DNA of 39,393 nt from Candidatus Aegiribacteria sp. (GTDB lineage: Bacteria > Fermentibacterota > Fermentibacteria > Fermentibacterales > JCC-6), in assembly GCA_030594645.1 (NCBI GenBank), contig JAUVEU010000020.1, positions 1 through 39,393 on the forward strand. Reading direction: 5' to 3'. The notes beneath the pieces are model-generated. The model saw only the letters and a list, made by a program, of their open reading frames with translations, was not told where the DNA came from and did not search any database. The position numbers were made by a program, and so were the translations under genes. Positions 9,326-31,689 of the stretch are shown one piece after another; positions within the stretch are counted from its first letter, which is position 1, and every line of letters begins with the position of its first letter.

Positions 9326-10032
9326 TAGATATTAATGCCATGTTTACACTTAGCTACGGTCTTTATGTGATCGGATCGCGATCCTTCGGTCGGATCAACG
9401 GGCAGATAGCCAATGCGGTCTTCCAGATAACAAATTCGCCGATGCGAATAGCTGTTGCGATCAACAAAGAAGAACTTACGCATGAATTCATAAGCGATAC
9501 GGGTGTCTGCTCCATAAATGTACTGAGCGAGAAAGCCGATCTTCCCTTTATCGGGCAGTTCGGATTCAGAACCGGCAGAGAAGTGGACAAGTTTGCGGAT
9601 GTTTCACATACACTTACCCCTTCAGGCTGCCCCTGTCCGGATGAGAACATACTGGCATGTATAGACCTTTCAATAAAGGACAGTCTCGATATAGGTACAC
9701 ACACTCTATTCATTGGGGAAGTAACCGATTGCATGATCACAGGCGAAGGGACCCCGATGACATACTCCTTCTACAGAGAAGTTCTGACAGGTAAGACGCC
9801 TCCAACCGCGCCTTCACATATCGCGGAAAAGAAAGACATCGATGTTGAACTGAACAGAGAGGAAAAACTCGAAATGAAAAAGTATGTGTGCAATATATGC
9901 GGATATGTCTACAACCCTGAGAAGGGCGATCCCGATTCCGGAATTGCTCCGGGAACCGCGTTTGAAGACATCCCTGAGGACTGGGTCTGCCCGGTCTGCG
10001 GTGTAGGCAAAGACCAGTTCTCAGAGCACTAG
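9322..10032 (+). CDS. hrb: High-molecular-weight rubredoxin (flavin reductase-rubredoxin fusion)
   Basis: 236 residues. Residues ~1-160 form an FMN-binding flavin-reductase-like split barrel ([23 protein letters not shown]). After a charged linker, residues ~185-236 are a complete rubredoxin with C190, C193, C223 and C226. In Moorella the homologous Hrb passes NADH electrons to the flavodiiron protein; the ATGA overlap with fprA supports the same role here. An in-frame ATG at the linker end (codon 185) could in principle yield free rubredoxin, but its ribosome binding site is weak. Its TAG stop lies within the first bases of structured repeat A. Confidence 0.94.
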
Positions 10033-10213
10033 CCTGCATAAATCACCAGCCTTCGTAGCGAAACGTCACAGATGCTGGTGGATACGAGGCTTGCGAATAC
10101 AGACCCCGGAGGCGTACTTATAAAGTACGTCGAGGACGGATGTATGAGCATAACGAAGTAGACGCCTGCATATGTGGTGTTGCAGTAGATGGCTGGTGAT
10201 TTATGCGGGCTAG
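10029..10213 (+). repeat. Structured repeat A (185 bp, possible structured RNA)
   Basis: Arms 10029-10051 and 10191-10213 are inverted repeats of 23 bp with one mismatch, which is a U-G wobble in a + transcript. The interior aligns with repeat B (31479-31689, opposite strand). Identical blocks include GTGGATACGAGGCTT (10077-10091), AGTACGTCGAGGACGGATG (10124-10142) and ATAACGAAGTAGAC (10150-10163). Small hairpins shared by both copies include TTCG/CGAA near 10052 and CGTC-GAG-GACG near 10128. A short CGTACT/AGTACG hairpin in the middle is replaced by a longer hairpin in B. It lies between convergent genes and supplies the 3' end of the leftward XdhC-like frame. No protein is encoded. I do not recognise the family. 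Confidence 0.8.
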
Positions 10214-11176
10214 GCTTCTGCGGAACAGGGAGATCAGTTCGGCGGCAATGCTGACGGCTATCTCATCAGGCGTACGGCTGCCGATTGGAAGGCCTATCGG
10301 GGAATGAACGCTGTCAAGAAAATCTTCGGAAACCCCTGCTTCGGCAAGATCCTTGAAAAGTTTCTCTTTCTTTGATCTGCTTGCCATCAGGCCGATATAT
10401 CTTAAATCTGTACCGCTCAGGCTTTTCAGTACCGCTGCATCAGCGCTGTGGCTGGGTGTCATTATTACTGCCCAGCTGTGATTACCCTTCTGTATGAATT
10501 TGTGCGAATCTATAAAGGGAACCTCAATCCATTTGCAGGGAAGAGAACTGCCTGGCTGAAACTTCCTTTCATCCAGAATAACAGGCTTGAAAGGGAGTTT
10601 TACAAGAAGCCCGGCAAGCGCCCGGCCGACATGTCCTCCCCCTATGATATAGACAGTGTCGCTCAGGCCAAGAGGTCCTTCGTATTCCCAGTATTCAGCA
10701 TCAGTGGAAGTGAATGAGTGATCTCTGAGGAGTTCGGATTCCCGTATCTCAAGTCCGTTCGGTGAGAGGCGGAGCATTCCGGTGGTGTCTGATTCCAGGA
10801 TATTGATAGCCCTTTCTACAGTATTGAGCATATCATTGCTAACAGGAGCAACTGCGGTGATCTGTGAACCTGAGCAGATCATACCTGAGGACTGTCCTTC
10901 TCCGGGAGGGTGATCGGCGGGATCGCAGTGGTGATGCTCGAAATATTCAGGAGATGTTTCTCCCTGTTCGAGCATTAAAAGCGCATGACGTATCATCCCC
11001 TGTTCCATGCCGCCGCCGCCGATAGTACCGGAATTCGTTCCGTCAGAAGTAACAGCCATCGCTGCTCCCGGTCTGCCCGGACCGCTTCCCTCCGTTCTAA
11101 GGGTCAGAAGAAGGGCACAGGGAACACTTTTCCTAAGTGATTCGCGAAGGAGCATCCATAGCTCAGGATTGTTCAC
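10118..11176 (-). CDS. XdhC/CoxI-family protein with repeat-derived C-terminal tail
   Basis: 352 residues with a GTG start overlapping the adenosine deaminase stop (GTGA). XdhC-type proteins bind molybdenum cofactor, support its sulfuration and insert it into xanthine-dehydrogenase-type hydroxylases. The N-terminal XdhC/CoxI domain shows GSGPGRPGAAM and GTIGGGGME; the C-terminal half is a Rossmann-like domain (YIIGGGHVGRALAGLL, then GLMASRSKK, IGLPIGSRTPDEIA). The core ends near residue 320 (AELISLFRRS). The last ~32 residues are read from structured repeat A, which also provides the TAA stop, so the native C-terminus was probably altered by the repeat. No molybdenum hydroxylase gene lies in the window. 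Confidence 0.87.
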   Translation of the reverse strand: MNNPELWMLLRESLRKSVPCALLLTLRTEGSGPGRPGAAMAVTSDGTNSGTIGGGGMEQGMIRHALLMLEQGETSPEYFEHHHCDPADHPPGEGQSSGMICSGSQITAVAPVSNDMLNTVERAINILESDTTGMLRLSPNGLEIRESELLRDHSFTSTDAEYWEYEGPLGLSDTVYIIGGGHVGRALAGLLVKLPFKPVILDERKFQPGSSLPCKWIEVPFIDSHKFIQKGNHSWAVIMTPSHSADAAVLKSLSGTDLRYIGLMASRSKKEKLFKDLAEAGVSEDFLDSVHSPIGLPIGSRTPDEIAVSIAAELISLFRRSLARINHQPSTATPHMQASTSLCSYIRPRRTL

Positions 11177-12393
11177 AGCTGGCGGTTATCCCTGGAGGCT
11201 TCGCTTTCGATCTTCTCGAAGTACTCCATGCAGCGCCGTACATACGCTCTCTTCTCATTGTATTTGCCAGGGAAGAAGCTCCGCTTGAAGCCGTAGACAA
11301 GAATATTCTTCAGATCGTTTCTGGTCAGATTGAATGCGTTTACCGCTTTGTGAAGTTCCTTTGTAACGGTCGTGTTCGATATTGTCCTGTTATCGGTACA
11401 TATGGATACCGAGAGTTTCCTTTCCATCATCTTCCCGAACGGATGGTTGGCGAGATCCCGGTAAGCGGGATTTGTCTGCTGATTTGATGTGAGACAGACC
11501 TCAATGGTTATCCTTCTGTCAGCTATGAATTCAGCAAGAGAATCAACATAGGCTTCCGGGTCAGTGATGTCTTCGGATTTGACTGAGCCCGGATCAAGGA
11601 GAGTCAGACCATGTCCAATTCGATCGGCATAGAGTTCGGTTATGGCCTGGTAGATACTCTCAGGTCCGTAAGCTTCACCGGCATGAACCGTCTTTTTCAG
11701 GAAATGTTTCTGAGCCCTTCTGAATGCGATAAGGTGGTTTATTGCCGGCCATCCTTTTTCAGAGCCTGCGAGGTCGATACCGACCACCGGAAGATTCTCC
11801 ACCCATCTCGCTTTCGATACCGCTGCTTCCAGCTCAAGTGATGCGAGAGAAAACACCCGTTCAGGTTTCGTGTATTTGTGCATCTCGAAAAACCTGCTGT
11901 ACCAGGTAGAGAAGGCTGGTGTGAAAAATCTCATTGCGCATGCGATAATTCCATAGTGGAAGGGAGGCTCATGCCCGTCAACGACCTCAGACCGGGAATT
12001 GAATTGCGTTTCCGCTCTGTCCAGTCCGTTGTTCACGGCTCTTATGCATTCGATGATATTCATCGAATCATTCGCGTGAAGCTGCGGAGCGAATCGTACT
12101 TCGATGTAGCGAACACCCTCTTTCTGGTTGTCCTCAGCAACTTCGAAGGCGATTCTTTCCAGATTTTCCCTTGTCTGCATTACAGCGGTTGTATACGCGA
12201 ATCCCTTCAGATAATCGTCCAGGTCTATATAATCGTCCTTGAACACGGTTTCACGAAGTCCCGACTCGGTATAGGATGGCAGCTTGACACCTGATTCCCG
12301 GGCAAGTTCTATGAGCGTTGAAAGCCTCACTGAACCGTCAAGATGCAAATGGAGGTCGGTCTTGGGAAGTTTTTTCAGGAGAGCGTGATTCAT
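11173..12393 (-). CDS. add: Adenosine deaminase family protein
   Basis: 406 residues. The ATG at 12393 has AAAGGA 6 nt upstream and gives the usual start just before the HLHLDG motif; a longer frame reaches 12480 but overlaps the upstream gene without support. It deaminates adenosine (or a related adenine compound) to inosine using one zinc. Ligands and catalytic residues are visible: H15 and H17, H237 and E240 (HAGE), H261 (DRIGHG) and D334. The usual TDD is TDN here (N335), as in some bacterial adenosine deaminases, so preference may differ from the mammalian enzyme. It is the middle gene of a leftward operon with an outer-membrane barrel upstream and an XdhC-like gene downstream, perhaps a purine-salvage setting. 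Confidence 0.88.
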   Translation of the reverse strand: MNHALLKKLPKTDLHLHLDGSVRLSTLIELARESGVKLPSYTESGLRETVFKDDYIDLDDYLKGFAYTTAVMQTRENLERIAFEVAEDNQKEGVRYIEVRFAPQLHANDSMNIIECIRAVNNGLDRAETQFNSRSEVVDGHEPPFHYGIIACAMRFFTPAFSTWYSRFFEMHKYTKPERVFSLASLELEAAVSKARWVENLPVVGIDLAGSEKGWPAINHLIAFRRAQKHFLKKTVHAGEAYGPESIYQAITELYADRIGHGLTLLDPGSVKSEDITDPEAYVDSLAEFIADRRITIEVCLTSNQQTNPAYRDLANHPFGKMMERKLSVSICTDNRTISNTTVTKELHKAVNAFNLTRNDLKNILVYGFKRSFFPGKYNEKRAYVRRCMEYFEKIESEASRDNRQL

Positions 12394-12418
12394 GCAAAAT
12401 CCTTTCCGGATAAATGGT

Positions 12419-13459
12419 TCAGAAAAGTTCCCCGAAAGCCAACTGCATACAAGGTCCCTCCGGTGACACGGCGAAATCAAACCTGAAAGTTCCTCCTCCG
12501 GGAATTGTTATCCTCAGGCCAAGGCCGCCGTCGAGGTGAAACCTGTTCCATTGTACTTCATCAAGATCATCAGTTGTCTGTCCGGCGTCACCGAAAAGAA
12601 CGACTCCGATTTCAATTGTATTGCTTTCGTCAATCTTGAATGATAGTAACCTTTGCCGGAGTTCCAGGTTGGCAAGCAGCGTCCATGAACCTCCGAAGCG
12701 TCTGTCGTGATATCCTCGGAGTCCGATTTTTCTGCCGAGGCTGGGCAGGTATGGAAACGGAGTTTCCGAAGTTCCAAAGTGTTTTTCTCCGAGGATGCGG
12801 AAGGCGGGTGTGGTTGAAGCTCCTATTGGAGTGAAGAAGGCGAGAGCTGCTGATGCATTGGAATAGGAAAACCCGCTGCCCATCTGGTGTTCCATCTCTA
12901 CTAAGGCATAACCACTAATGAGTGATGGGAATAACCAGTGAGCTTCTATCAAAGGTCCTGCGCTCCAGAGGGAGCCATAATCAGAGCAAGGTGAGGAAGT
13001 CCAGAGAGTATCTTCCGCTCTGTCATATACTGTTGAATGGTTTACCCGTATACCGGTGGAAAGGGCAAAACCGGCTGCAGGGCTGAATCTGTATATACCG
13101 GAAATACACTGCATCTGCCTGTCGTAGGAAGTGTTGATATCCTTGTCACCGTCGTTCCCCCATCCGTAAAAAGAGGCTTCATTATCCACCCTGTATGCAG
13201 CTTCTATGTTTATGATTCCATTTTGCAGGGGGAAGAGGAATACCGGTTTAAGAAATATGCTTCCATTTGTGAAGACCTGTGTCATGCAGTTGAAAGCAAA
13301 GGGGTTGTACGGAGATTTCATGTTATGACTGACGACGCCGCCGAACATTACTCCTGAATTGGGACTATAGCTTACAAGAGGCAGTACTCTCAATGCAAGA
13401 GTAGGTATGGAGAAGAGAACAAGAATTACCGAAATGAATATCTTTGCTGAAATTTTCAT
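12419..13459 (-). CDS. Outer-membrane beta-barrel of the Omp85/D15 surface-antigen type
   Basis: 346 residues. An N-terminal signal peptide (IFISVILVLFSIPTLA) is followed by alternating strands consistent with a barrel. The LRGY motif (IGLRGYHDRRFGG) and a later FGDAG are marks of the Omp85/BamA C-terminal barrel, and the protein ends in phenylalanine as many outer-membrane proteins do. No POTRA domains precede the barrel, so it is not a full BamA or TamA. It implies an outer membrane. It starts 47 bp from the divergent glycan cluster, and 25 bp separate it from the downstream deaminase. Transport of nucleosides or other small molecules is possible but unproven. Confidence 0.8.
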   Translation of the reverse strand: MKISAKIFISVILVLFSIPTLALRVLPLVSYSPNSGVMFGGVVSHNMKSPYNPFAFNCMTQVFTNGSIFLKPVFLFPLQNGIINIEAAYRVDNEASFYGWGNDGDKDINTSYDRQMQCISGIYRFSPAAGFALSTGIRVNHSTVYDRAEDTLWTSSPCSDYGSLWSAGPLIEAHWLFPSLISGYALVEMEHQMGSGFSYSNASAALAFFTPIGASTTPAFRILGEKHFGTSETPFPYLPSLGRKIGLRGYHDRRFGGSWTLLANLELRQRLLSFKIDESNTIEIGVVLFGDAGQTTDDLDEVQWNRFHLDGGLGLRITIPGGGTFRFDFAVSPEGPCMQLAFGELF

Positions 13460-13506
13460 CTGTTCCGTCCTGACGTTTAAACCTTAAGTTTTTCCTGTAC
13501 CTGTTC

Positions 13507-14253
13507 ATGGATTATATTGCACAAAATACAGAAAGTAGAGGTCTTTTGAAAACACCACTGATTGTTGTCCCAACCTACAATGAACTGGAAAACATTCGAA
13601 ACCTGCTTCCCGTTCTGCTTGATCTACAAATAAAGCCCGATATACTCGTTGTCGATGATCAAAGTCCGGATGGAACAGGAAAAGCAGTCCAGGAGCAGGA
13701 ACATACAGGAAGAGTGCATCTTCTCAGTCGTCCGGAGAAAGCCGGCCTCGGTAAGGCGTACATTTCCGGATTCAAATGGGCGCTGGAAAGGGATAAGTAC
13801 GATCCGATAATTCAGATGGATGCCGACTTCTCTCATAAACCTGAAAAAGTACCGGAACTTGTTAAAGTTCTTGATAATAACGATGTCGCCATTGGCTCCA
13901 GATATTGCAGTGGAGTAAATGTTGTCAACTGGCCCCTTTCGCGATTGCTCCTTTCCTGGTTCGCCAACCGGTATACAAAACTGATAACCGGTTTGCCTCT
14001 TGAGGATGCTACAGGAGGCTTTAAGGCTTTCAGGAGAACAGCTCTTGAAAAGCTTGATCTGAATTCAATAAAATCTGATGGGTACTCCTTCCAGATAGAG
14101 GTTTCATACAAACTCTACAGAGCGGGATGTTCTATTACAGAGGTTCCAATCATTTTTGTGGACAGGCATGCCGGCACATCCAAGATGACTAAAAGTATTG
14201 TCTGGGAGGCTGTCTGGATGGTATGGCATCTCCGTTTTCCCTGGCTTTTCTGA
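13507..14253 (+). CDS. Polyprenol-phosphate mannosyltransferase (DPM1-like, GT2)
   Basis: 248 residues, close to soluble DPM1/Ppm1 enzymes; no C-terminal membrane domain is present. It transfers mannose (or another hexose) from a GDP- or UDP-sugar to a polyprenyl phosphate. GT2 motifs are visible: VVPTYNE at ~21, VVDDQSPDGT at ~48, the metal-binding MDADFSHKP at ~103, and GSRYCSGV. The ATG at 13507 lacks a clear ribosome binding site; TTG at 13546 (codon 14), behind AGAGG, is an alternative start just before the fold. It opens the rightward glycan cluster. A membrane glycosyltransferase that could use a polyprenyl-P-sugar lies downstream at 17470. Confidence 0.88.
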   Translation: MDYIAQNTESRGLLKTPLIVVPTYNELENIRNLLPVLLDLQIKPDILVVDDQSPDGTGKAVQEQEHTGRVHLLSRPEKAGLGKAYISGFKWALERDKYDPIIQMDADFSHKPEKVPELVKVLDNNDVAIGSRYCSGVNVVNWPLSRLLLSWFANRYTKLITGLPLEDATGGFKAFRRTALEKLDLNSIKSDGYSFQIEVSYKLYRAGCSITEVPIIFVDRHAGTSKMTKSIVWEAVWMVWHLRFPWLF

Positions 14254-14268
14254 GATGAAGCTGCCTGT

Positions 14269-16518
14269 ATGATTTCTTTCATTGCCTTGCTACTCGCTGT
14301 TTCAATCAGTCCTTCCGATTGGGGTTTTGAAACATCACAGAGTTATGTCACGTCAATTTTCGAGGATTCAGATGGTACGATGTGGTGTTCAACGTCAGGG
14401 GGGATTCTCCACTATGACCCCGATACAGGCTGGGATGATCCCATTGTCTATCCGGATGAGTTACCATGGTACAAAACAAATGATCTTTATGTGTACGATT
14501 CGCTGTTGTGGGTTGCTACAGCCGGCGGCGGTCTTGCGTTAAGGCAGGGGGAGGTCTGGCAGGTTTTTTCTTCCTATGAGGGCATTCCAGGAAGCGGAGT
14601 TGTGCATTCAGTGCACTGTGCCGGCGGATATACATGGGCTGGATCTGATGGTGGTCTGTCGCGTGGTAATGCTGCCGGCTTCCAGCAGATTGACGAGTCC
14701 GCTACCGGTGGAGCCTTCAGGGCCGATGAAGTAACGGGAATTACGAGTGTTTCCGACATTCTGTTTCTGGCGACTGATAGAGGTGTTTACTCGCTTGATC
14801 TTCTGGCAAGTCCCTTCAATCCGGATTCCTGGACCAGCCATGAGACGGCGACATCTGATCTTGGCATTTCGGATATTTACACGGTGTCAGCTGATTCCGT
14901 ATTTGGCTTCGGACCGGGCGGAGTTATGCAGATGATCAACCCTGACAGCTGGCAGGTTCTTCTCGACTATTCAATGAGCGATGATTCCGTGGTTACCGGA
15001 CTTCTCCGGACAGACAATGAGTTTCTTGCTTCATGCATCAATGTCAAACGATTTATCGAAGAAGGTGTCTGGGAGACATATGGAGAAGGGTATCCCATCA
15101 GTACTTTCTCATCCTGCCTCGGATTCGCATGTGATAAGATATGGGTCGGGTACGGTCTTAACGATGTGAGTACAGAGAATTCGGGAAACGGTCTCGGATA
15201 TCTTGATAACGGAACATGGGTTTCGGTTCCTGTTTCAGGGATGGCGGGGTCAAGCTGTTATCAGATAACTCTGGACAGCGGCAATATTTACCTCGGAAGT
15301 CACAATGCAGGCCTGATGGTGTGCTATCCGGACAGTGGATGGAACACCTTCAATATGAATACAGTGAATATGCCCAGATCTCTCCGAACATATTCATCTG
15401 CGAAATCGTCCTGTCCGGGAATCTGGACGGGCAGTTATCATTACGGACTTACATGGATTAATGACAGAAACACATTCTCCATGGAGGACGACACGGTCAT
15501 TACATATGTTTCTGATTCTCTTTCCGATGTTTCTCCGGACGTGGTTCAGGTTATTGCTCCTCTTCTTAACAACCAGGTAGTAATGCTCTCTGTCCAGAAT
15601 GGAGCTCTCTGGATTGCGCAGGAAGCCTTCTGGCAGTCGCCCGATGAGATCAGCGGGATTGTGGCTGTGTCCGGTGACCCTGAATCCGGCGATCTGGAGT
15701 GGACATCCAGAACAGACACGGACGGACTTGCTGTTAAGAATATCCAGACACTCTATCCGTGCGGTCAGGATAGCCTCTGGATTGCTTTCGCCTCCAATGG
15801 TGGATGTCAGCTTCTTGTTCACGGTGGTAATCCCCTCGACAAATCACAGGACATCTGGTATCCGGGGCAGGGAGAGGTCTACGATACATCCTGGGGTCTT
15901 TCTTCCAGTCAGGTTTTCTGTTTTGCCAGGGATAATGGCGGTAATATTCTGGCCGGGACCGGCAGCGGCCTGTTTCGCTGGCAGGAAAACGCGTTTGTTC
16001 AGATTTCAGGAATAACCGGTTCCATAAAAACAATGCAGGTTGACAACAGGGGAAGAATATGGTGCATGAGCGGAAGTTCAATCATTTGCGTGGATGACTC
16101 TGAGATTACGGAATTCACAACTTCCAATTCGCCATACATACCCACGAGCAGAGTCGAGAATGAGTTCAGTGCTTTTCAAGCGAATGCTGGAAAGCTGTAT
16201 TTTTCCTCGATAATTGGTTTATGGACCCTTATCGTGCAGCAGGGAAGCGATGAAAGTCCTGATCTGCTGTTCTATCCTCAGCCGTTTCTTCCTGCAGAAG
16301 AAGAACTTCATATGTGCTGGACAGGTACTGACCGGCAGATTTCAGTGAAACTGTTTTCACTTGACGGACAGTATCTGGGGTGTATACAGGCTGAGAGCTG
16401 GGAGGAATGGTCCTGGAATGGTTCATTGAGTGACGGCGATGTGTCCTCCGGAGTGTATTTGGCTATTATAGAAACGGATGATATGACTATCAGAGCAAAG
16501 GTTGCAGTGATAAGATGA
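14269..16518 (+). CDS. Secreted propeller protein with FlgD-Ig-like C-terminus (copy 1)
   Basis: 749 residues. A signal peptide (ISFIALLLAVSIS) is followed by repeats of ~45 residues of the two-component-regulator propeller type, such as DSDGTMWCSTSGG, LWVATAGGG and TWAGSDGGL, which fold as blades of a beta-propeller. The last ~80 residues (from YPQPF) have the FlgD-Ig pattern with G-Y/WNG and a final strand ending RAKVAVIR, common in exported proteins of FCB-like phyla. Such propellers are usually part of sensor kinases; here no kinase domain follows. The ribosome binding site is weak. The acetyltransferase gene overlaps its stop (ATGA). A paralogue lies at 24089. The role in this glycan cluster is unknown. 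Confidence 0.85.
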   Translation: MISFIALLLAVSISPSDWGFETSQSYVTSIFEDSDGTMWCSTSGGILHYDPDTGWDDPIVYPDELPWYKTNDLYVYDSLLWVATAGGGLALRQGEVWQVFSSYEGIPGSGVVHSVHCAGGYTWAGSDGGLSRGNAAGFQQIDESATGGAFRADEVTGITSVSDILFLATDRGVYSLDLLASPFNPDSWTSHETATSDLGISDIYTVSADSVFGFGPGGVMQMINPDSWQVLLDYSMSDDSVVTGLLRTDNEFLASCINVKRFIEEGVWETYGEGYPISTFSSCLGFACDKIWVGYGLNDVSTENSGNGLGYLDNGTWVSVPVSGMAGSSCYQITLDSGNIYLGSHNAGLMVCYPDSGWNTFNMNTVNMPRSLRTYSSAKSSCPGIWTGSYHYGLTWINDRNTFSMEDDTVITYVSDSLSDVSPDVVQVIAPLLNNQVVMLSVQNGALWIAQEAFWQSPDEISGIVAVSGDPESGDLEWTSRTDTDGLAVKNIQTLYPCGQDSLWIAFASNGGCQLLVHGGNPLDKSQDIWYPGQGEVYDTSWGLSSSQVFCFARDNGGNILAGTGSGLFRWQENAFVQISGITGSIKTMQVDNRGRIWCMSGSSIICVDDSEITEFTTSNSPYIPTSRVENEFSAFQANAGKLYFSSIIGLWTLIVQQGSDESPDLLFYPQPFLPAEEELHMCWTGTDRQISVKLFSLDGQYLGCIQAESWEEWSWNGSLSDGDVSSGVYLAIIETDDMTIRAKVAVIR

Positions 16519-17483
16519 TAACGATCAGGCCTGCAGAAGTATGTGATAGAGAAAAATGGACTGATTTTGTCCTCCGTTCAAATAATGGTACGGTGTTTCA
16601 TCTTCCCGATTTTCTCGATTATCATCCGGAGGGGAGATTTCAGAATCATCATCTGATAGCTGAAAGCGACAGCGAAATCGTATCGATTATTCCCGGCGCT
16701 CTTTCTGAGCGGGAAGACGGTGTCTGGTTCCGGTCCTATCCGGGTTCTTCGTACGGAGGTCCGGTGACGAATGATTCTCTCGGACTGAGAAAACTGGAAG
16801 AGTTGATTGATACGCTGGAATCGTATTGCGGATCTCAGGGCTGGACCGGAATAGAAATGACTCCACCCCCGATCATCTATTACAGAAGACCTCACAACTA
16901 CCTAGAGTTTGCTCTGGTCAAACGGGGTTTCAAATACCGAAGAAGGGAACTGACAGCAGTTATAGACCTGACTCGATTCGGTGAGGAACTGAAACTTGGA
17001 TTCCGTTCATCTGCTCTTCGCGGCGTGAGGAAAGCTCTGAAAAGCGGAGTTACAGTCGAGGAGAATTCCGATTTTTCACTGTTCTATCACGTGCTCGAAT
17101 CAAATCTTCAGCAGCGTCACGGAGTCAAACCCACTCATACTCTTTCAGAACTTGAACTTCTTAGAAGCCTTCTTGGAAGTGATCGTATCAAACAGTTCAT
17201 TGCGCTGAAAGACGGAGAAGTTCTTGGGGGGATGGTGATGTTTCACTGCAACCCCAGGGTGACTCTCGCTTTCTACATCTCCCACGATCAGGAGCATCAG
17301 GCTTTCAGACCGGTCAATCTGGTTTACATGGATGTTATCAGATGGGCGAAGCAAATGGGATACCATTACATGGATCTCGGGACTTTTACCCTTGATATGG
17401 ATGTAAATTACGGACTATGCCGATTCAAGGAATCATTTTCCGCGCGAGGAATTTTCAGGAACACTCTCTATGGTTTTGTCTAG
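16515..17483 (+). CDS. FemAB-like GNAT aminoacyl/acyltransferase
   Basis: 322 residues containing two tandem GNAT-like folds of the FemAB/BioF2-like type (RPAEVCDREKWTDFV at the start, PGSSYGGPV, then HHGVKP-like RHGVKPTHT, and the C-terminal MDLGTFTLD and FKESF). FemAB-type proteins add amino acids from tRNA to peptidoglycan bridges; relatives in exopolysaccharide clusters add acyl or aminoacyl groups to sugars. The final Tyr/Lys/Glu-rich KESFSARG is typical of the family end. The start forms an ATGA overlap with the propeller gene and its end overlaps the next gene by 14 nt. The acceptor is unknown. Confidence 0.82.
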   Translation: MITIRPAEVCDREKWTDFVLRSNNGTVFHLPDFLDYHPEGRFQNHHLIAESDSEIVSIIPGALSEREDGVWFRSYPGSSYGGPVTNDSLGLRKLEELIDTLESYCGSQGWTGIEMTPPPIIYYRRPHNYLEFALVKRGFKYRRRELTAVIDLTRFGEELKLGFRSSALRGVRKALKSGVTVEENSDFSLFYHVLESNLQQRHGVKPTHTLSELELLRSLLGSDRIKQFIALKDGEVLGGMVMFHCNPRVTLAFYISHDQEHQAFRPVNLVYMDVIRWAKQMGYHYMDLGTFTLDMDVNYGLCRFKESFSARGIFRNTLYGFV

Positions 17484-22215: not shown

Positions 22216-22217
22216 CA

Positions 22218-23138: not shown

Positions 23139-23141
23139 AAT

Positions 23142-24092
23142 ATGACGGCCAAGGAGAGCTACGGTGAAAACAGGCTTGAGTCCGGTGCAGTTCTGGTCAC
23201 CGGAGCAGGCGGGTTTGTAGGCAGTCACCTCATGAGTGAACTTGAAATGGGTAAGGGAGATATAGCAGTTGATGTCTCGACTGATTTTCAGGCTCCAGCC
23301 TTCGTCAAGAAAATTGCATGGAATCTCCCCTCTGAAGCTCCAGAAGAGCTGGGAGAAGTCCGGTATATTATTCATCTGGCGGCAATGAGTTCTGTATCAC
23401 GCTCTTTGAAGGAAGTGCATGAAGCATACGAAATCAATCTCATGGGAACTATTTCAATTCTCGAGTACATGGTTTCACATTGCCCGAAAGCAAGACTTCT
23501 TATGATCAGCTCCGCCGAGGTTTATAAACCATCTGACGATCTGATTACTGAAAACAGTGAGATTGGCCCAAGAAATCCTTACGGTACTACAAAAGCCGCA
23601 GCGGAAATAGCGGCATTTCAATTTGCAGGGAATTACAATCTGGATATAGTGCTTGCCCGTTCATTTCCTCATTATGGTCCAGGACAATCCGAAGATTTCG
23701 CATTTCCGGCATTTTGCAGACGTATTATCGAGGCAGCCAGAAGTGGATCAAAGCGGATACGGGTAGGAAACCTCAGACCAGTGCGTGACTATCTTTATGT
23801 ATCGGATGTGGCAAGAGCATACAGGTATATCCTTAACAGAGGGCAGTCCGGCAGTATTTATAATGTTTGTTCAGGAACAGGAAACAGTATTGGAGATATG
23901 GTTAATATGCTTATTGAAATTTCCGGACATGATATTGAACTTGAAGTTGACCTTGAACTGTTCCGTCCGGTTGATGTGGAATTTCAGGTTGGCGATCCAT
24001 CCAGGTTGAACTCTTTGCTCGGCTGGAAACCGGAGGTCAACAGAAACACTGGCTTGAGCAGACTGTTTTCATGGTGGGAGGAGAGAATATGA
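23142..24092 (+). CDS. NDP-sugar dehydratase/reductase, extended SDR, Rmd-like
   Basis: 316 residues of extended SDR. GAGGFVGSH binds NAD(P) at the N-terminus; S-S and the catalytic Y-x3-K (PYGTTKAA) are present. HYGPGQSEDFAF, GNLRPVRDY and DVARAY resemble GDP-4-keto-6-deoxymannose reductase (Rmd). It could instead reduce the 4-keto-6-deoxyglucose made by the nearby RmlB, since no rmlC or rmlD is seen in the window. A strong GGAGG-type site precedes its ATG. The next gene (propeller copy 2) starts in its stop codon. Confidence 0.8.
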   Translation: MTAKESYGENRLESGAVLVTGAGGFVGSHLMSELEMGKGDIAVDVSTDFQAPAFVKKIAWNLPSEAPEELGEVRYIIHLAAMSSVSRSLKEVHEAYEINLMGTISILEYMVSHCPKARLLMISSAEVYKPSDDLITENSEIGPRNPYGTTKAAAEIAAFQFAGNYNLDIVLARSFPHYGPGQSEDFAFPAFCRRIIEAARSGSKRIRVGNLRPVRDYLYVSDVARAYRYILNRGQSGSIYNVCSGTGNSIGDMVNMLIEISGHDIELEVDLELFRPVDVEFQVGDPSRLNSLLGWKPEVNRNTGLSRLFSWWEERI

Positions 24093-26263
24093 CCCTTCTG
24101 ATGATCTTCAGCGTATTGGTTACAGGTAGAATATCCGATTGGGAGCACTTTACGCATTTAGGCGGAGTCAGTGAAATACTTGTTGAAGATACTCAATTTG
24201 CGGGAGCAACAAGCGGTGGAGTAATTTTCGGAACGCTCGGGGCCGATACAGTATTCTGGGACTCAACATGGACCTGCCCGGGGGAACTTTCTATAAGTGA
24301 TGTAAGATGTCTTGCCAGAGATGAATCAGGGAATCTTTGGATTGGGACTAATGGCGGAGGAATTGATGTGCAGCTCTCATCTGGAGGATTTCAGCATTAC
24401 GGACAGCTTGAAGGGTTGCCGATTTCTCTGAAGATTACCTGTATTCTCCCGGATACGACGATCTGGGTCGGTACAAGCGAAGGGCTCTGCAGCAAGGATC
24501 TTGGCTACTTCAATGTCTGGACAATATTTTCAACTGGCGGCGGACTTCCCTCAGATATCATTAACTGTATCGCCTCTGTGGATTCCGGACTTATTGTGGG
24601 CACGTCTAACGGTATCGTAATGCTCAGAAAAGATCTTTACCCAGGGAGTTCGGGTTCATGGCTCAGTTTTCCATCCGCTTCGGAAATTGGAGCTTTCGAT
24701 CTTCTCGTTACAGGTGACACTGTCTGGGCCGCTTCCCCAACAGGCCTGCATTTCTTGGTTGCCGGTCAGGACTGGCAGACTGATGAGACGTATCCTGGAA
24801 ATTATCCGGTCTCGCTTTCCTATAATGAGGGTAAACTGGCAGTTGGGGGTCAGGGTGATGTCTGTATTTTCGATGGTTCCCAATGGAACAGAGGAACGTA
24901 CGGACTGGTAGGACAGATGATTCAGGACATATGCTGGTTATCCACTGACAGCCTCATAATTGCACAGGTGTCAGGATTCTCTGAGAACAGAGCATCAGGT
25001 AACGGGGTCGCAATCGGCCTTCTTGATTCATGGTACAATACCCGGCCTGCAGGAATACTGTCCAATGACCTGCTGGCGGTGGATATTGATTCCAGAGAGG
25101 ATATCTGGGTAACAAGTAATCACAGGGGAGCCGGAGTTCTCAGCCAGTATGGATGGACAGAGTTCGGATCTCAATTACCGAGCAAGGATCAGGTGTTCGT
25201 TTGTCTGGCGGATCATTCCGGAGGAGTGTTTATTGCTTCCTGGCACTATGGTGTAACCTGGCTGGACTGGAATGGGACACCAGAGAGAGATGATGATGTT
25301 TTTGTCAATTGGGATACTGAGAACAGCGGTCTTCTGAACAATCAGATCAGAAGCGCAGCGATTTCATCATCCGGAGAGGTGTGGTTCGCTCAGGAACCGT
25401 ACTGGGAAACGCCATCCGAACCCAGCGGAGTAGTAAGACTCTCCTGGACACCCGGAGAGGAGACTACTGCGTCATGGAAAGCCTTCGAACCATCTGACGG
25501 TCTTCCATCAGGTTATGTACGGGATGTTGCGGCGACGCCCTCATCTACAATAGCATGGATGGGAACCGAACTGGGACTGGTTGAAGGAAACATTCTTACA
25601 GGTCAGGTCCTGTATTCCGCAGGCACGCCGCAGGGATTACCATCAGGGGATGTGCAATCGATAGCCCTTTCAAGAAATGCAGATCTCTATGTGGGAACAA
25701 CCGGCGGTCTCGCTGTGCTGAAATCAGGAGAAGAAACATTCATAGATGTAGAAGGCATCTCCGGTAATATATATATGCTCTGTTTTGACAATTTATCCTG
25801 TCTCTGGGTTGCTTCTTCAGAAGGGTTCTACAGGATTTATCCCGATGGAACCCTTGAAGAGTACAATACACTGAACTCACCATTACAATCCATTGATATC
25901 AGGAACGCTGTCTGCGATGTGGATAATGGATTGCTCTACATTGTTACAGATCATGGTCTCTGGAAACTTTATCTCGAACAGGGAATGACCGGCAACATAG
26001 AAACAGCAACGGTATATCCCAATCCGTTTGTCCCTGGAGCAGGAGAAGTACTGGGAATTGCAGGGCTTCCGAATACATCTCTGGATTTCCATCTGTTTGA
26101 CCTCAGGGGAGAGCTTGTTTATGAGTCCGTGTCACAGAACAGGGACATGTTCTCATGGGATGGTTATGACGACAGTGGTGAACCTGTGGCGTCGGGAACG
26201 TATATTGTACGGATTTCACAGGATGGTGAAAGCAGATTCTTCAAACTTGCGATTGTTCGATAA
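24089..26263 (+). CDS. Secreted propeller protein with FlgD-Ig-like C-terminus (copy 2)
   Basis: 724 residues. The ATG at 24089 has GGAGG upstream and makes an ATGA overlap with the preceding reductase; an earlier ATG at 24071 precedes that site and is less likely. A short signal sequence (TLLMIFSVLVTG) is followed by propeller repeats (DESGNLWIGTNGGG, TIWVGTSEGL, VWAASPTGL, LYVGTTGGL). The last ~80 residues, from YPNPF, have the FlgD-Ig pattern with FSWDGYDDSGEPVASGTY. The architecture is the same as the protein at 14269, and in both cases the gene is translationally coupled to a glycan enzyme. No kinase domain follows. Its function is unknown. Confidence 0.85.
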   Translation: MTLLMIFSVLVTGRISDWEHFTHLGGVSEILVEDTQFAGATSGGVIFGTLGADTVFWDSTWTCPGELSISDVRCLARDESGNLWIGTNGGGIDVQLSSGGFQHYGQLEGLPISLKITCILPDTTIWVGTSEGLCSKDLGYFNVWTIFSTGGGLPSDIINCIASVDSGLIVGTSNGIVMLRKDLYPGSSGSWLSFPSASEIGAFDLLVTGDTVWAASPTGLHFLVAGQDWQTDETYPGNYPVSLSYNEGKLAVGGQGDVCIFDGSQWNRGTYGLVGQMIQDICWLSTDSLIIAQVSGFSENRASGNGVAIGLLDSWYNTRPAGILSNDLLAVDIDSREDIWVTSNHRGAGVLSQYGWTEFGSQLPSKDQVFVCLADHSGGVFIASWHYGVTWLDWNGTPERDDDVFVNWDTENSGLLNNQIRSAAISSSGEVWFAQEPYWETPSEPSGVVRLSWTPGEETTASWKAFEPSDGLPSGYVRDVAATPSSTIAWMGTELGLVEGNILTGQVLYSAGTPQGLPSGDVQSIALSRNADLYVGTTGGLAVLKSGEETFIDVEGISGNIYMLCFDNLSCLWVASSEGFYRIYPDGTLEEYNTLNSPLQSIDIRNAVCDVDNGLLYIVTDHGLWKLYLEQGMTGNIETATVYPNPFVPGAGEVLGIAGLPNTSLDFHLFDLRGELVYESVSQNRDMFSWDGYDDSGEPVASGTYIVRISQDGESRFFKLAIVR

Positions 26264-26284
26264 AAACCGGAAGAGGTTGATTCC

Positions 26285-27019
26285 ATGAAAGGTGTTGTTC
26301 TTGCCGGGGGACTTGGAACACGGCTCAGGCCGCTGACCAGTATAACAAACAAGCATCTGCTGCCTGTTTATGATCAGCCGATGATTTTCTACCCTCTTCA
26401 GAAGCTTGCTGAGGCGGGGATCAGTGATGTAATGCTGGTTACAGGCGGGAACAGCGCAGGAGATTTTCTCCGGCTCCTTGGTGATGGATCAGATTTCGGA
26501 CTCAACACTCTTAATTATGCCTATCAGACTAAAGAAGGCGGCATAGCGGAAGCGATAGGTCTGACAAAAGCATTTGTCGGCGGTGATAAATTCGTTGTTA
26601 TCCTGGGTGACAATATTCTTGAGGATTCGCTTGAGCAATATGTGGAAACGTTCCGGAAGCAGGAGAATGGAGCGAGAATACTTCTGAAGGAAGTGAGTAA
26701 TCCAAGAGATTACGGAGTAGCTGAGATCGAGGGAGACAGGATCATATCAATAGTTGAAAAACCTGAATGCCCCGTAAGCAACTATGCCGTCATTGGTGTA
26801 TACATGTACGATGATTATGCATTTGAAGTTATTGATGCGCTTAAGCCTTCCGCGAGGGGAGAACTAGAGGTCACCGATATCAACAACGCTTATCTGAGCG
26901 CCGGTAAACTCATGGCGGATATTATTGGAGGCTGGTGGGCGGATTCCGGAAGCAGCATTGACGGTCTTCTGCAGGCCGGGATCAGAGCAAGGGAACTGAG
27001 GGTCGGGAGAAAGATATGA
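26285..27019 (+). CDS. rmlA: Glucose-1-phosphate thymidylyltransferase (short RmlA)
   Basis: 244 residues, shorter than the common ~290-residue RmlA but like other short members of the family. It makes dTDP-glucose from glucose-1-phosphate and dTTP in the cytoplasm. GGLGTRLRPLT is the nucleotide-binding signature; KHLLPVYDQPMIFYPL, GDNILEDS (Mg site), YGVAEIEG and VEKPE follow in order. GAGGTTG-like spacing precedes the ATG. The rmlB gene starts in its stop codon (ATGA), so the two are coupled. Confidence 0.93.
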   Translation: MKGVVLAGGLGTRLRPLTSITNKHLLPVYDQPMIFYPLQKLAEAGISDVMLVTGGNSAGDFLRLLGDGSDFGLNTLNYAYQTKEGGIAEAIGLTKAFVGGDKFVVILGDNILEDSLEQYVETFRKQENGARILLKEVSNPRDYGVAEIEGDRIISIVEKPECPVSNYAVIGVYMYDDYAFEVIDALKPSARGELEVTDINNAYLSAGKLMADIIGGWWADSGSSIDGLLQAGIRARELRVGRKI

Positions 27020-28041
27020 AACTTCTCATCACAGGCGGCGCGGGTTTCATAGGAAGCAATTTTACAAGAATGGTAATTAATCAGAATCCTTCATGGAAGG
27101 TTACTGTTCTTGATAAGCTGACATATGCCGGCAGAAGGGAAAATCTCTCTGACCTGGAAGACAACTCCCGCTACACATTTATCAGGGGAGATATCTGCGA
27201 TCCGGATGCGGTATCCGAAGCGATGAATGGATGCGACACAGTTGTCAATTTCGCAGCTGAAACTCATGTGGACAGATCCATTGATGATTCCTCCTCTTTT
27301 GTCAGGACAGACATTGAAGGTGTCAGGGTTCTTCTTGAGGAATTCAGGAAAGAAAAACGGAATCTATTCCTTCAGATATCTACTGATGAAGTGTACGGCA
27401 GCGTTGAATCAGGAAAATCTCGAGAAGGTGATACGCTTGCCCCGAGAAGTCCGTATGCGGCATCCAAGGCCGGCGGAGAACTGCTGGCCATGAGCTACTG
27501 GACGACCTATAAAACACCCGTTGTGGTAACGAGGGCATCGAATAATTACGGCCCATGGCAGTATCCCGAAAAGCTCTTCCCCCTTTTCATTACAAACGCA
27601 TTGGACGGAGAACCTCTTCCATTGTACGGAGACGGTCTGAACCGTCGAGACTGGATGTATGTGGAAGATCACTGCCGGGCACTGATGCTCATACTTGATA
27701 ATCCTGTTCCGGGCTCCATCTACAACATCGGAGCAGGGGAAGAGCATACCAACAGGGAAGTGACCGATGGCATACTCGCGGCAACAGATGCTGATCGGGG
27801 TCTTGTTAGGTATATTGATGACCGCCCCGGACATGACAGACGGTACGCTCTTGACGTCAGTTCCATAGAAGAGAAGCTTGGCTGGAAGGTTGAGATTTCC
27901 TTTGAAGAGGGGCTTGAACTTACAGTCGCATGGTATATTAGTAATCGTGCCTGGTGGGAAGAGATTAAATCAGGCAGATTCAGGGAATATTACAAAGTTA
28001 TGTATTCTGAGAGATTGGGCAATTCCCGGGAGAATAGATGA
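27016..28041 (+). CDS. rmlB: dTDP-glucose 4,6-dehydratase (RmlB)
   Basis: 341 residues, standard length. It converts dTDP-glucose to dTDP-4-keto-6-deoxyglucose using bound [13 protein letters not shown] is the NAD loop; STDEVYG carries the catalytic Thr-Asp-Glu; the Y-x3-K pair is in [21 protein letters not shown] and [13 protein letters not shown] are typical of the family. It is coupled to rmlA upstream and to the UDP-glucuronate decarboxylase downstream by ATGA overlaps. No rmlC or rmlD follows. Confidence 0.95.
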
Positions 28042-28994
28042 GAATACTTGTAACAGGCGGTGCCGGCTTCATTGGCAGCCACCTTTGTGAAAGACTGCTT
28101 TCTGAAGGACACGAAGTGGTGGCGATGGATAACCTTATTACAGGGTCGACAGATAACATCGCGCATCTGGCCGGTAACGGCAGTTTCTCGTTCATTCATC
28201 ATGATGTGACAAACTATATTTTTGTACAGGGAAAGCTTGATTTCATTTTTCACCTTGCTTCTCCCGCAAGTCCGGCTGACTATCTTGCCTTTCCGATTCA
28301 AACGCTGAAAGTCGGATCGCTGGGAACTCATAAAACCCTGGGTCTCGCAAAGGAAAAGAATGCCGGTTTCATGCTGGCATCAACCAGTGAAGTCTATGGA
28401 GACCCTCTTATTCATCCTCAGACGGAGGATTACTGGGGAAATGTGAATCCAGTAGGCCCAAGGGGAGTTTATGACGAGGCAAAACGGTTCGCGGAGGCCC
28501 TTACGTTCGCGTACAGACGCTTTCATGGAACAAATACGAAAATCGCCAGAATCTTCAATACTTACGGACCCAGAATGAGAGCTGATGACGGAAGAGTTGT
28601 ACCCGCTTTCATTTCACAGGCATTGTCCGACCATGACCTTACAGTCTTTGGTGATGGCAGCCAGACTCGGAGTTTCTGCTTTGTTTCAGATACGGTTGAC
28701 GGACTGGTGCGTTTAATGATGAGTAATTTCGAGGGACCGGTGAACATAGGCAATCCTGAAGAGATGACTATCCGGGAGTTTGCCGGTTTTGTACTGGAGA
28801 GAATCAAAACACAGAGTACAATCGTTTACAGGGATTTACCGATGGATGATCCCAAGATCAGAAAGCCGGACATATCCCTGGCGAACGAAAAACTTGGCTG
28901 GAAACCAGTCGTCTGCCTGGAAACTGGTCTGGATACCACAATCGAGTACTTCAGGAAGACCGGGTATCAAACCGGGACTTCCAGACAGGATTAA
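28038..28994 (+). CDS. UDP-glucuronate decarboxylase (UDP-xylose synthase)
   Basis: 318 residues of extended SDR. It oxidises and decarboxylates UDP-glucuronate to UDP-xylose (or a 4-keto pentose). The family hallmarks are intact: [32 protein letters not shown] followed by [23 protein letters not shown] with the Y-x3-K pair, and [15 protein letters not shown]. The start lies in the rmlB stop (ATGA). UDP-glucuronate itself would need a UDP-glucose dehydrogenase, which is not in the window. Confidence 0.93.
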
Positions 28995-29039
28995 ATGTAA
29001 TGTATTACTGTACTTTGTTTTACGGGGACTGGTAAATTT

Positions 29040-30215
29040 ATGTTCTTTACAATACTCATGATACTTTTGCAAAGTGTTTCTCCGCCTGTTTCAAGCGGTT
29101 CAGGCATCAGCATTTCTGTTCTCGAACAGGTGGACAGAAATTCATATATCCTTGGTCCGGGTGATGTCGTATCAGTTGTAATAGAGGGTGGCTGCACAGA
29201 AGCGTTACTGGTAGCGGGAGTTCTTCCATGGGCTGAAAGCCGCATCGGCTCCGATGGTTATCTGTCCGTATCAGGTATAGGAGCCGTTGATGTGGATGGC
29301 CTTACGATCGAGCAGTCACAGTATGCTCTGCAAAGGACAGTTTCAAGATTCTATCCGTCATTGAATATTACACTCTCACTTTCTGAACCTCGCATGTTGA
29401 GAGCAAGTATTCGAGGCATGGTTAATGAACCCGGAACATATATCATGACATCACTCGACAAAGTTTCTGACCTGGTTTTGAGGGCAGGAGGCATTTCCGC
29501 TTACGGTTCCAGGATCGGGAAACTGTATACGGCTGTCGGCGATACTCTCGAAGTCGATCTGCATATTTCCGGAGAAACCGGGTTCCATACTGTGGATCCT
29601 TTTTTGACCAATAATGCGAGTGTTCTTTTTGATGTATGTACAAATCCTGTATTCCTTCTTCGCTCAGATTTGACTTATCCGGCAACACCTGATGAGATTC
29701 CTGAAAGGATTCACTCATTTGAAACCTGGGAACTCGCGCCATACGATAATTTCGAGTCTCTTGTTGTTCGTATGGGAGGTTTGCCGGGGAATGTGAATCT
29801 GTCCGAGACCAGGATCGTCAGAAACAGTGGTCATTTTCCTGTCTGGGCTGACAGCATTGGTATTCTTCAACAGCTGATTCTCCCCGGAGATACAATACTG
29901 CTTGTAATGATGAGCGATTCAATAGTTGTTGCTGGAGCTGTAAGTATTCCTGGATCGGTAGTATACAGACCGGAGAGCACCGTATTCAACTATATTATTG
30001 CTGCTGGAGGGTTATCGAATGAAGCAGGTTCTAATATCTCCATATTCCGGAACGGAATTGAATTTGAACCGGATAGGTCTATAGAGGATCTGACGCTGCT
30101 TCCAGGAGATGGAATCAATGTTGGTTATAACTGGTTCTCAAGAAACAAAGATCTGATTTCTGTTTTCGGGACAATAGTGTCGATTGGTGTAACAGTATAT
30201 GCAATATCGAAATAG
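29040..30215 (+). CDS. Wza-like polysaccharide export protein (PES/SLBB)
   Basis: 391 residues. It has a signal peptide (FFTILMILLQSV) with no lipobox cysteine, unlike classical Wza. A polysaccharide-export domain begins YILGPGDVVSVVI near residue 36, followed by two SLBB-type domains (RGMVNEPGTYIM near 124 and VAGAVSIPGSVVY near 300). The C-terminus is a hydrophobic helix (LISVFGTIVSIGVTVYAI), which in Wza forms the outer-membrane barrel of helices. It should form the channel that exports the glycan through the outer membrane. It starts 45 bp after the UDP-glucuronate decarboxylase gene and is followed by the Wzz-like gene 10 nt downstream. Confidence 0.87.
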   Translation: MFFTILMILLQSVSPPVSSGSGISISVLEQVDRNSYILGPGDVVSVVIEGGCTEALLVAGVLPWAESRIGSDGYLSVSGIGAVDVDGLTIEQSQYALQRTVSRFYPSLNITLSLSEPRMLRASIRGMVNEPGTYIMTSLDKVSDLVLRAGGISAYGSRIGKLYTAVGDTLEVDLHISGETGFHTVDPFLTNNASVLFDVCTNPVFLLRSDLTYPATPDEIPERIHSFETWELAPYDNFESLVVRMGGLPGNVNLSETRIVRNSGHFPVWADSIGILQQLILPGDTILLVMMSDSIVVAGAVSIPGSVVYRPESTVFNYIIAAGGLSNEAGSNISIFRNGIEFEPDRSIEDLTLLPGDGINVGYNWFSRNKDLISVFGTIVSIGVTVYAISK

Positions 30216-30225
30216 AGTATAGAAG

Positions 30226-31470
30226 ATGCAGAATAATATGAGAAACACTTTTGCAGGGAACTGGTTAAGCTCAATAGCGTTAAATCTTCGCAAAATTATC
30301 CTTCTGTGCATCATTGTCGCGATAGCGAGTTCTGTATGGGCTCTGACAAGAGAGAAGCGGTGGAGCGCATCAGCCCTTGCTATGGTTCCTGGAGAATCCG
30401 GCTCTCTATCTCAGATGGCGGATCTCGGAGCAATTGCCGGAAACATTTTACCCGGAGGGCTTGGCGGCCTCGGAAGCGCACTGAGCGCAGGGACACCGGG
30501 AGGAATGGATATCAATCTTGTCCAGCAGATATTGTCTTCAAGGATAGTGATTGAAAAAATAATGCTGAAGTACGATTTTTTTGAACATTTCAAATCCCCG
30601 AATATTGATCTCGCCCTTGACCGAATGCAGAAATGGATATCAGTTGATCTCACTCCTGAAGGCCTGATCGTTGTATCTGCAGAAGGCAGGAGCAGAGAAG
30701 AAGCAGCAGCTATGGTGAACGATATTATCGCGTTCGCGAACGACGAACTCTCCGTCATTATAACCAGCAGAGCCAGGCGAAGCAGAATTCTCGCAGAGGA
30801 ATCCGTGGAAACAGCGGAAGAGTCACTTCTTGTAGCGCAGAACAGAATGGAGCGGTTCCGGGAGGAAACAGGGCTCATTTTTCCAGAAGAGCAGGGTTCG
30901 CAGACAATCGGATTACTTGGTGCACTCGAGACAGAACTTCTTCTTGCCGAGGCGGAACTGTCAGGTGTAAGCGGAACCATGTCGCACTCCAGTTCCGCTT
31001 ATTCGGAGATAGCGCGAGAAGTCGCATTCCTCAGGAGTACTCTGAATACCAGAATGACATCCGGAGACAGTCTCAGTCTCTTTCCAGGTCTGGACAGCAT
31101 TCCATCGATGCTGAAGGAGTATGAAAATATCTCAATCAACCTTGAAACACGTCGCATAATATATCTGATGCTGCGGCAGGAGCTGGAATCACTGAGGCTT
31201 GAGGAAGCAAAGGAAAGCCCCACTCTTGAAGTTCTGGTTCCCGCAGTACCAATGGCTCTCCGGTCATATCCGAAACGCGCTATGCTTGTCATAACAAATA
31301 CTTTTATTGCCCTTATTCTCTCACTTCTCTGGCTTACTGTAGTTACCTATGCAAAGCAGCTTCTCGAAAGTGAATCAACAGGGGATTTCTGGAGAGGTAT
31401 TCTGAAAACTACTGGTAAGCAGCTATTTTTAATCAAAGATAAAAAGCGCGGTTCAGGGGAAATCCGCTGA
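30226..31470 (+). CDS. Wzz-like chain-length / polysaccharide copolymerase protein
   Basis: 414 residues. Two membrane helices, ~23-41 and ~350-372, flank a large periplasmic domain rich in heptad-like helices (~180-345, such as ESVETAEESLLVAQNRMERF). The proline-rich segment before the second helix (VPAVPMALRSYPKR) is characteristic of Wzz/PCP proteins. There is no C-terminal tyrosine-kinase domain, so it is not a Wzc fusion. It should control the chain length of the exported glycan with the Wza-like protein upstream. An ATG at 30238 is an alternative start. Structured repeat B begins 8 nt after its stop. Confidence 0.86.
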   Translation: MQNNMRNTFAGNWLSSIALNLRKIILLCIIVAIASSVWALTREKRWSASALAMVPGESGSLSQMADLGAIAGNILPGGLGGLGSALSAGTPGGMDINLVQQILSSRIVIEKIMLKYDFFEHFKSPNIDLALDRMQKWISVDLTPEGLIVVSAEGRSREEAAAMVNDIIAFANDELSVIITSRARRSRILAEESVETAEESLLVAQNRMERFREETGLIFPEEQGSQTIGLLGALETELLLAEAELSGVSGTMSHSSSAYSEIAREVAFLRSTLNTRMTSGDSLSLFPGLDSIPSMLKEYENISINLETRRIIYLMLRQELESLRLEEAKESPTLEVLVPAVPMALRSYPKRAMLVITNTFIALILSLLWLTVVTYAKQLLESESTGDFWRGILKTTGKQLFLIKDKKRGSGEIR

Positions 31471-31478
31471 TCATCCAA

Positions 31479-31689
31479 TCAGCCCGAATCCATCACAAAT
31501 ACTCTACTGCAGCGATGTATATACCAGTGTCTACTTCGTTATACTCAAGCATCCGTCCTCGACGTACTTTTCGGGGACACGCAGCAGAGCCTGCATGTCC
31601 CCGAGCCTCCGGAGTCTGCTTTCGAAAGCCTCGTATCCACAGGAATCTTCACCGCTTCGCCACGAGTACTTGTAACGGATCCGGGCTAG
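31479..31689 (-). repeat. Structured repeat B (211 bp, possible structured RNA)
   Basis: Arms 31481-31503 and 31665-31687 are inverted repeats with 19 of 23 exact matches. All four mismatches become G-U pairs in a leftward (- strand) transcript, but A-C clashes in a rightward one. The leftward sequence aligns with repeat A, sharing GTGGATACGAGGCTT, AGTACGTCGAGGACGGATG and ATAACGAAGTAGAC. The arm sequences of A and B differ, yet both pair, which indicates conserved structure. A 12-bp hairpin (31573-31602) stands where A has a short one, and its GGACATGCAGGCTCTGC motif matches element C. It fills the space between the wzz-like and second flippase genes. Confidence 0.8.
31573..31602 (-). repeat. 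Nested palindromic hairpin within repeat B
   Basis: Read leftward, GGGGACATGCAG pairs with CTGCGTGTCCCC over 12 bp (one U-G wobble) around a GCTCTG loop. Its first 17 nt after the first two G are identical to part of element C near the left edge. In repeat A the same place holds only a 6-bp hairpin, so the hairpin was probably inserted into, or expanded in, B. Confidence 0.65.

Follow-up and report, generated by a model that had tools for sequence, protein, structure and literature searches.

A dispersed, protein-free palindromic repeat of Candidatus Aegiribacteria and its relatives with a strand-specific signature that suggests selection on a folded RNA

A stretch of 39,393 nucleotides from Candidatus Aegiribacteria sp. 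(contig JAUVEU010000020.1; the whole stretch is called the window below) contains two copies of a palindromic repeat, A (10030-10212, plus strand) and B (31480-31688, minus strand), each with flanking tetranucleotides at its edges, and raises the question of whether such a repeat is maintained as DNA or for the RNA that it can form. The initial annotation, whose two copies are real, took them for a structured RNA under selection and not for a mobile element; this view is partly supported here, in that the RNA-level signature was right and mobility was missed. On balance, and with considerable reserve, the repeat is probably a non-autonomous, protein-free element resembling a miniature inverted-repeat transposable element (MITE), which is mobilised in trans, duplicates a 4-bp, mostly YTAR target and has a sense strand that is a structured RNA under selection. 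This reading is based on the spread of copies, on the duplicated target and the empty insertion sites, and on covariation in the stems, several near-invariant internal-loop segments and a wobble excess found in the sense orientation only.

The two copies belong to a sizeable family. A covariance model (R1) built from A, B and eight other copies gave 37 matches in the 3.07-Mb draft genome of the organism, and after subtraction of 12 opposite-strand mirror hits 25 loci were left, comprising 21 strong sense-strand matches and 4 partial or weak ones; the covariance search of this genome and its relatives that had been proposed at the outset thus yielded more than 20 further copies at home and others in related genomes. 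Among 60 genomes, searched with stricter filters by which weak matches are lost, copies occur in 13 of 19 members of the genus (the present genome included), in 6 of 17 from the rest of the family and in 0 of 24 outside it, with 0 to 34 matches per genome, mirror hits counted. The typical copy is about 183 nt long, intergenic and protein-free, and none of 127 copies lies inside an open reading frame (ORF) of about 100 aa or more called by a simple ORF caller, as had been noted for A and B.

A loop pattern run against a genome collection gave 54 hits, 53 of them in entries named Aegiribacteria, Sabulitectum, Fermentibacteraceae or Fermentibacteria, whereas a hit in Deltaproteobacteria (L255) had no element around it by eye and was taken as chance. 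In the NCBI taxonomy, Sabulitectum belongs to Fermentibacterota, and Aegiribacteria is incertae sedis within the FCB group; so far, the element is known from one bacterial family only (Aegiribacteria, Sabulitectum and relatives). Phages and plasmids searched with A, and viral contigs searched with one loop pattern, gave no match, and an origin from a phage, plasmid or virus was rejected on that absence. The suspicion that no known RNA family is involved was borne out: Rfam 15 at gathering thresholds gave nothing credible over the whole window, and a relaxed search with A, B and five loci hit A and B only at E values of 1.4 to 9.3, with models of small nucleolar and long non-coding RNAs that were taken as chance. 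No earlier description of the family was recognised in the literature searched, although the wider literature and names for insertion sequences (IS) and MITEs may hold one, and this element of uncultured bacteria is apparently undescribed so far.

The proposal of selection on RNA structure, made from two copies, holds across the family. In alignment A2, which comprises 107 distinct copies and was fitted to a structure model, 93.7% of 5719 stem cells pair, so that further copies whose arms vary and no longer pair, which would have spoken against the proposal, did not appear. Of 55 stem pairs, 41 have changed on both sides; cells changed on both sides number 749, against 253.5 after shuffling and at most 120 with slid partners, and compensatory stem changes therefore exceed both controls. 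The structure-blind repeat, a MAFFT alignment of 111 copies folded with RNAalifold, gave -19.5 for the sense strand and 0.0 for the antisense strand, that is, a consensus fold on the sense strand only, and contained 485 G-U against 64 A-C cells. Taken singly, the sense RNA folds better in 111 of 111 copies, by a median of 22 kcal/mol. At least 97% conservation is reached in 42 of 183 columns, 23 paired and 19 unpaired, and the longest such runs are CGAA, AGGC, AGGA and ATAACG. CGAA opposite GCAGUA bears a putative resemblance to the bulged-G (sarcin-ricin) consensus.

The distinction between RNA and DNA rests on the wobble pairs. A palindrome kept by DNA symmetry predicts equal numbers of G-U and A-C combinations, whereas the distinct copies of A2 hold 619 G-U against 85 A-C cells, so that the contrast between the two RNA orientations first seen in A and B is family-wide. 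Collapsed to events, the numbers are 78 and 40, against 49 and 55 for the same base changes in unpaired columns. Because the unpaired columns are balanced, a general mutational strand bias does not explain the G-U excess, and because the excess is strand-specific, neither does maintenance of a palindrome at the DNA level. By tree parsimony, G-U and A-C changes number 73 and 15 on internal branches (52:45 in the unpaired control) and 129 and 55 on terminal ones (73:95 in the control). Copies whose upstream gene reads into them in the sense direction are paired in 94.7% of cells, against 92.9% in the others (43 vs 59 copies; stratified permutation p=0.01), and pair better also at equal divergence. 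This gain, a small effect, speaks for RNA rather than for single-stranded DNA (ssDNA).

Evidence of mobility comes from the ends of the element. The end-to-end repeat of flanking bases spans exactly four positions, and the tetranucleotides match exactly in 36 of 114 full-length copies, against a mean of 9.9 and a maximum of 23 in 2000 shuffles. YTAR stands at both ends in 42 of the 114, and 35 of these 42 carry the same tetranucleotide on both sides. Within this set, which includes a few orthologs and so is not fully independent, left position -1 is correlated with right position -3 (p=1.3e-7) and left +2 with right +1 (p=5.8e-9), whereas end positions that pair with each other are uncorrelated (p=1 and 0.34); the correlation thus matches duplication and not base pairing. 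Joined-flank searches found uninterrupted sites in related species for four of eight copies of the present genome (B, L032, L084 and L085) and no resolved site for A, L031, L033 and L080; the empty site of B in G014 reads ATCTGATCTGAA. One shared site holds an A-type copy in G000 and a different subfamily in G014 (L063, L121). The inverted repeats comprise 21 arm pairs with 92.4% of cells paired. The family is therefore short, multicopy and protein-free, with terminal inverted repeats, target-site duplication and empty sites, which are the marks of a MITE and overturn the assumption that it is not mobile. In G017 (C91:3316-3680; L130), two identical 183-nt copies stand in direct tandem with the tetranucleotide between them shared, and an apparent element end lies just before the pair.

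The target also bears on the location of A and B at gene ends, which was confirmed (the TAG of A is a gene stop, and B lies between two genes). YTAR holds TAA or TAG, so that a gene whose stop codon receives the element can still end in a stop at the near edge, and copies lie at gene ends partly because the target contains a stop codon. Of the genes that read towards an element, 9 of the 44 on its upstream side and 14 of the 54 on its downstream side end at its terminal stop triplet. Position at a gene boundary alone is no evidence of regulation.

Several observations weigh against a MITE-like element with a selected sense RNA. Alignment A2, being fitted to the structure, favours it, a bias that the structure-blind repeat addresses. 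Mean conservation is 75.3% in unpaired and 78.7% in paired columns; as ssDNA, too, the sense strand folds better (110 of 111 copies, median 6.5 kcal/mol); and the outer arm alone gives only 33 G-U against 21 A-C events (p=0.13). YTAR is missing on at least one side in 72 of 114 copies, and all copies outside the 36 exact matches have tetranucleotides that differ between sides, as in B (CTAG, CTGA). In several empty sites the sequence is TCAG, CTGA or ATAG and thus departs from the tetranucleotide that flanks the copy. The effect of transcription direction on pairing is small. Above all, orientation shows no bias in the 110 copies that have a called gene on each side: between neighbours on one strand, 25 copies are sense and 35 antisense, and a further 19 stand between convergent and 31 between divergent genes. 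Reading in sense from the nearest upstream gene is thus possible for only 44 of the 110; the lack of bias is the main difficulty for a role in mRNA. Finally, private changes show no G-U excess (27 vs 26), and 22 changes between orthologous copies simply break pairs.

The private changes lead to a different explanation. The wobble excess is found in shared changes (46 G-U vs 14 A-C) and not in private ones, and internal branches show it more strongly than terminal ones, a pattern that suggests selection on propagating lineages; together with the absent orientation bias, this would suit a folded sense RNA that serves as an intermediate or cofactor of transposition, with selection on the lineages that propagate and not on resident copies. 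We regard this as unlikely. Ortholog pairs keep the bias (22 G-U vs 5 A-C), which speaks against selection on propagating lineages alone, and resident orthologous copies are conserved, their identity being 93% where fourfold sites in neighbouring genes reach 72% (9 pairs, 7 loci), a difference that repeated insertion at the same site would also fit; an intergenic neutral yardstick yielded only 48 aligned bases, and that comparison was left unused. Reverse transcriptase (RVT_1, PF00078) was matched in 6 of 16 genomes searched, some of them copy-rich, and is present in G012, G009 and G003, but it was unmatched in the copy-rich G000, G013, G014, G017 and G007. The TnpB zinc ribbon (PF07282) was matched in 0 of 16 genomes, a search that did not extend to IscB, and this separates the family from the omega-RNA type of IS200/IS605. 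Target-primed retroposition, moreover, would not be expected to give a target duplication of fixed length and ends that are mostly intact. The narrower proposition that integration with 4-bp duplication requires the folded sense RNA of the element itself, either as a cofactor or as an intermediate, is more doubtful still; if true, such RNA-dependent integration would make the family a bacterial counterpart of SINEs or an RNA-assisted transposon without a protein of its own.

The strand-specific fold might instead be a ssDNA hairpin recognised by an enzyme of the Y1/RAYT type, as for REP elements, an explanation that we hold to be improbable. DNA parameters, too, make the sense strand more stable, and Y1_Tnp gave 67 matches in 14 of 16 genomes, nine of them in the present genome. 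Transposition of ssDNA by Y1 enzymes would not be expected to duplicate the target, whereas the 4-bp duplication seen here covaries between the ends. Thirty fetched Y1 loci, out of the 67 matches, contained no element copy at E values up to 0.1, and the RAYT link was rejected on that result. Y1 genes also occur in the copy-free genomes G001, G006, G011, G015 and G020, and the copy-bearing G050 gave no Y1 match. The genomes of the fetched loci (L342-L371) hold up to nine Y1 (RAYT-like) matches each, mostly in open frames of about 220-420 aa.

Least probable among the alternatives appears an ordinary MITE, the palindrome of which is kept by transposase end recognition and template switching within the palindrome, with RNA irrelevant. 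Long inverted repeats, a 4-bp target duplication and dispersal are indeed features of DNA transposons, and the IS5 group is described with a 4-bp duplication at sites that include CTAA and CTAG (PMC11677980). PF01609 transposases were matched in 9 of 14 genomes searched, among them the copy-rich G013, G014, G017, G007, G012 and G045. Against this stand the wobble counts given above and the present genome, in which PF01609, a point of difference from the IS5 group, and PF13546 were unmatched, as were RVT_1 and the TnpB zinc ribbon. The 16 PF01609 loci checked showed no facing pair of element ends; seven had stray end-like matches with at most 3 mismatches. An end-pattern scan of two genomes, combined with the PF01609 and PF13546 searches, found no autonomous IS sharing the ends, and partial copies in C145, C158 and C92 and lone ends, followed up as traces of an autonomous parent, led to no transposase; these searches were made on incomplete drafts and did not extend to further families such as IS3, IS21, IS630, other IS5 models or IscB.

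For the MITE-like element with a structured sense RNA, a course of events may be outlined. An enzyme acting in trans would insert the element at a 4-bp, mostly YTAR target with duplication. Read-through from a neighbouring gene would yield an element RNA that folds into a long hairpin, and a host RNA-binding protein or nuclease may recognise or cut this hairpin. The element would then act at the 3'-end of an mRNA, or in its processing or stability, as reported for ERIC and NEMIS, and copies that fold well would be kept and spread. By analogy, the most likely mode of action of the sense RNA is the one reported for ERIC and NEMIS (PMC2229807, PMC10969869), and the family may perhaps be called an ERIC/NEMIS-like mRNA element.

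Copy A scores 188.4 bits against R1, of which it was one of the ten building sequences; its predicted fold has -100.8 kcal/mol with short flanks (minimum free energy z -9.4 vs dinucleotide shuffles). Its target-site duplication is CTAG on the left (10029-10032) and on the right (10210-10213). The TAG in the left tetranucleotide serves as stop codon for a flavin reductase-rubredoxin gene (ORF 9322-10032), the rubredoxin domain of which is complete. On the plus strand, the 5' and 3' closing arms (10030-10051 and 10191-10212) are followed inwards by internal loop 1, with a 5' strand at 10055-10062 in which CGAA (10059-10062) is at least 97% conserved family-wide and a 3' strand, TGCAGTA, at 10181-10187 in which 5 of 7 positions are at least 97% conserved. 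Internal loop 2 consists of a 5' strand, AGGC (10087-10090), and a 3' strand, GAGCATAACGAAG (10146-10158), which has the longest run of at least 97% conservation, ATAACG, and an apical hairpin lies at 10114-10128. An XdhC-like ORF (10118-11176, minus strand) enters the element for about 31 codons (10118-10212); the insertion of A may have replaced the end of this protein.

Copy B, also among the ten model-building sequences, scores 146.4 bits and has a predicted fold of -107.7 kcal/mol with short flanks (z -8.5). It has an expanded variable apical hairpin, missing in A, with approximate limits of 31571-31604. On the minus strand its 5'-side tetranucleotide is CTAG (31686-31689) and its 3'-side one CTGA (31479-31482), which differs. 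The 23-bp stems and their wobbles, as first described, stand exactly for A, where 23 pairs (10029-10213) comprise 22 Watson-Crick and one G-U, and need correction for B, where 25 pairs inward from 31480/31688 comprise 20 Watson-Crick and five, not four, G-U in the minus-strand RNA; one step out, 31479/31689 is a C-A mismatch. On one side of B lies a gene that matches Wzz weakly, below the cut-off, and on the other a gene resembling polysaccharide flippases.

In several copies of the present genome, the closing arm holds near its inner end an additional segment of some 40 nt or more, either in the 5' arm (L005, L007, L008) or, inverted, in the 3' arm (L004, L006). These segments are largely alike around GGAACCA.AGGTTTCTGGCTG, and a second, nested repeat is possible. 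Copies of about 60 bp that have arms without a core (G000:C94:62575-62636, C84:425-484 and C19:8622-8684) are probably decay products.

Palindromic MITEs of this kind are already known, and the new part is the measured strand-specific signature. ERIC/IRU of enterobacteria is a mobile stem-loop repeat that alters mRNA levels at gene 3' ends and for which orientation matters, and NEMIS/Correia is a MITE that gives rise to RNA hairpins within mRNAs, which RNase III processes (both PMC2229807, PMC10969869). The new family shares with ERIC/IRU a MITE-like, palindromic, mobile form able to make a stem-loop, and differs from it in its length of about 183 nt, its 4-bp, mostly YTAR duplication, and the strand-specific wobble bias and subfamily-wide compensatory changes measured in it. 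It is likened to NEMIS/Correia by description and not by sequence, RNase III processing being a NEMIS feature. The intergenic CIR repeats of Caulobacter, for which a phylogenetically conserved RNA structure was proposed (PMC2229807), are about 110 bp long with two arms, a linker and a GANTC motif, whereas the new family forms one rod-like hairpin. Like the REP/RAYT and TIRYT systems (PMC3733652), it is palindromic and lives in genomes with RAYT-like Y1 genes, but it has a target duplication and no copy in the Y1 loci fetched.

An RNA role was thus proposed before for ERIC, NEMIS and CIR, and the new family provides an evolutionary test of that idea, because more than 100 related, co-changing copies together with the wobble excess allow selection for a fold of the single strand to be told apart from symmetry of the DNA. 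As the family now has a covariance model, a target site, empty sites and conserved loops, its transcription, its partner protein and its mobility become testable.

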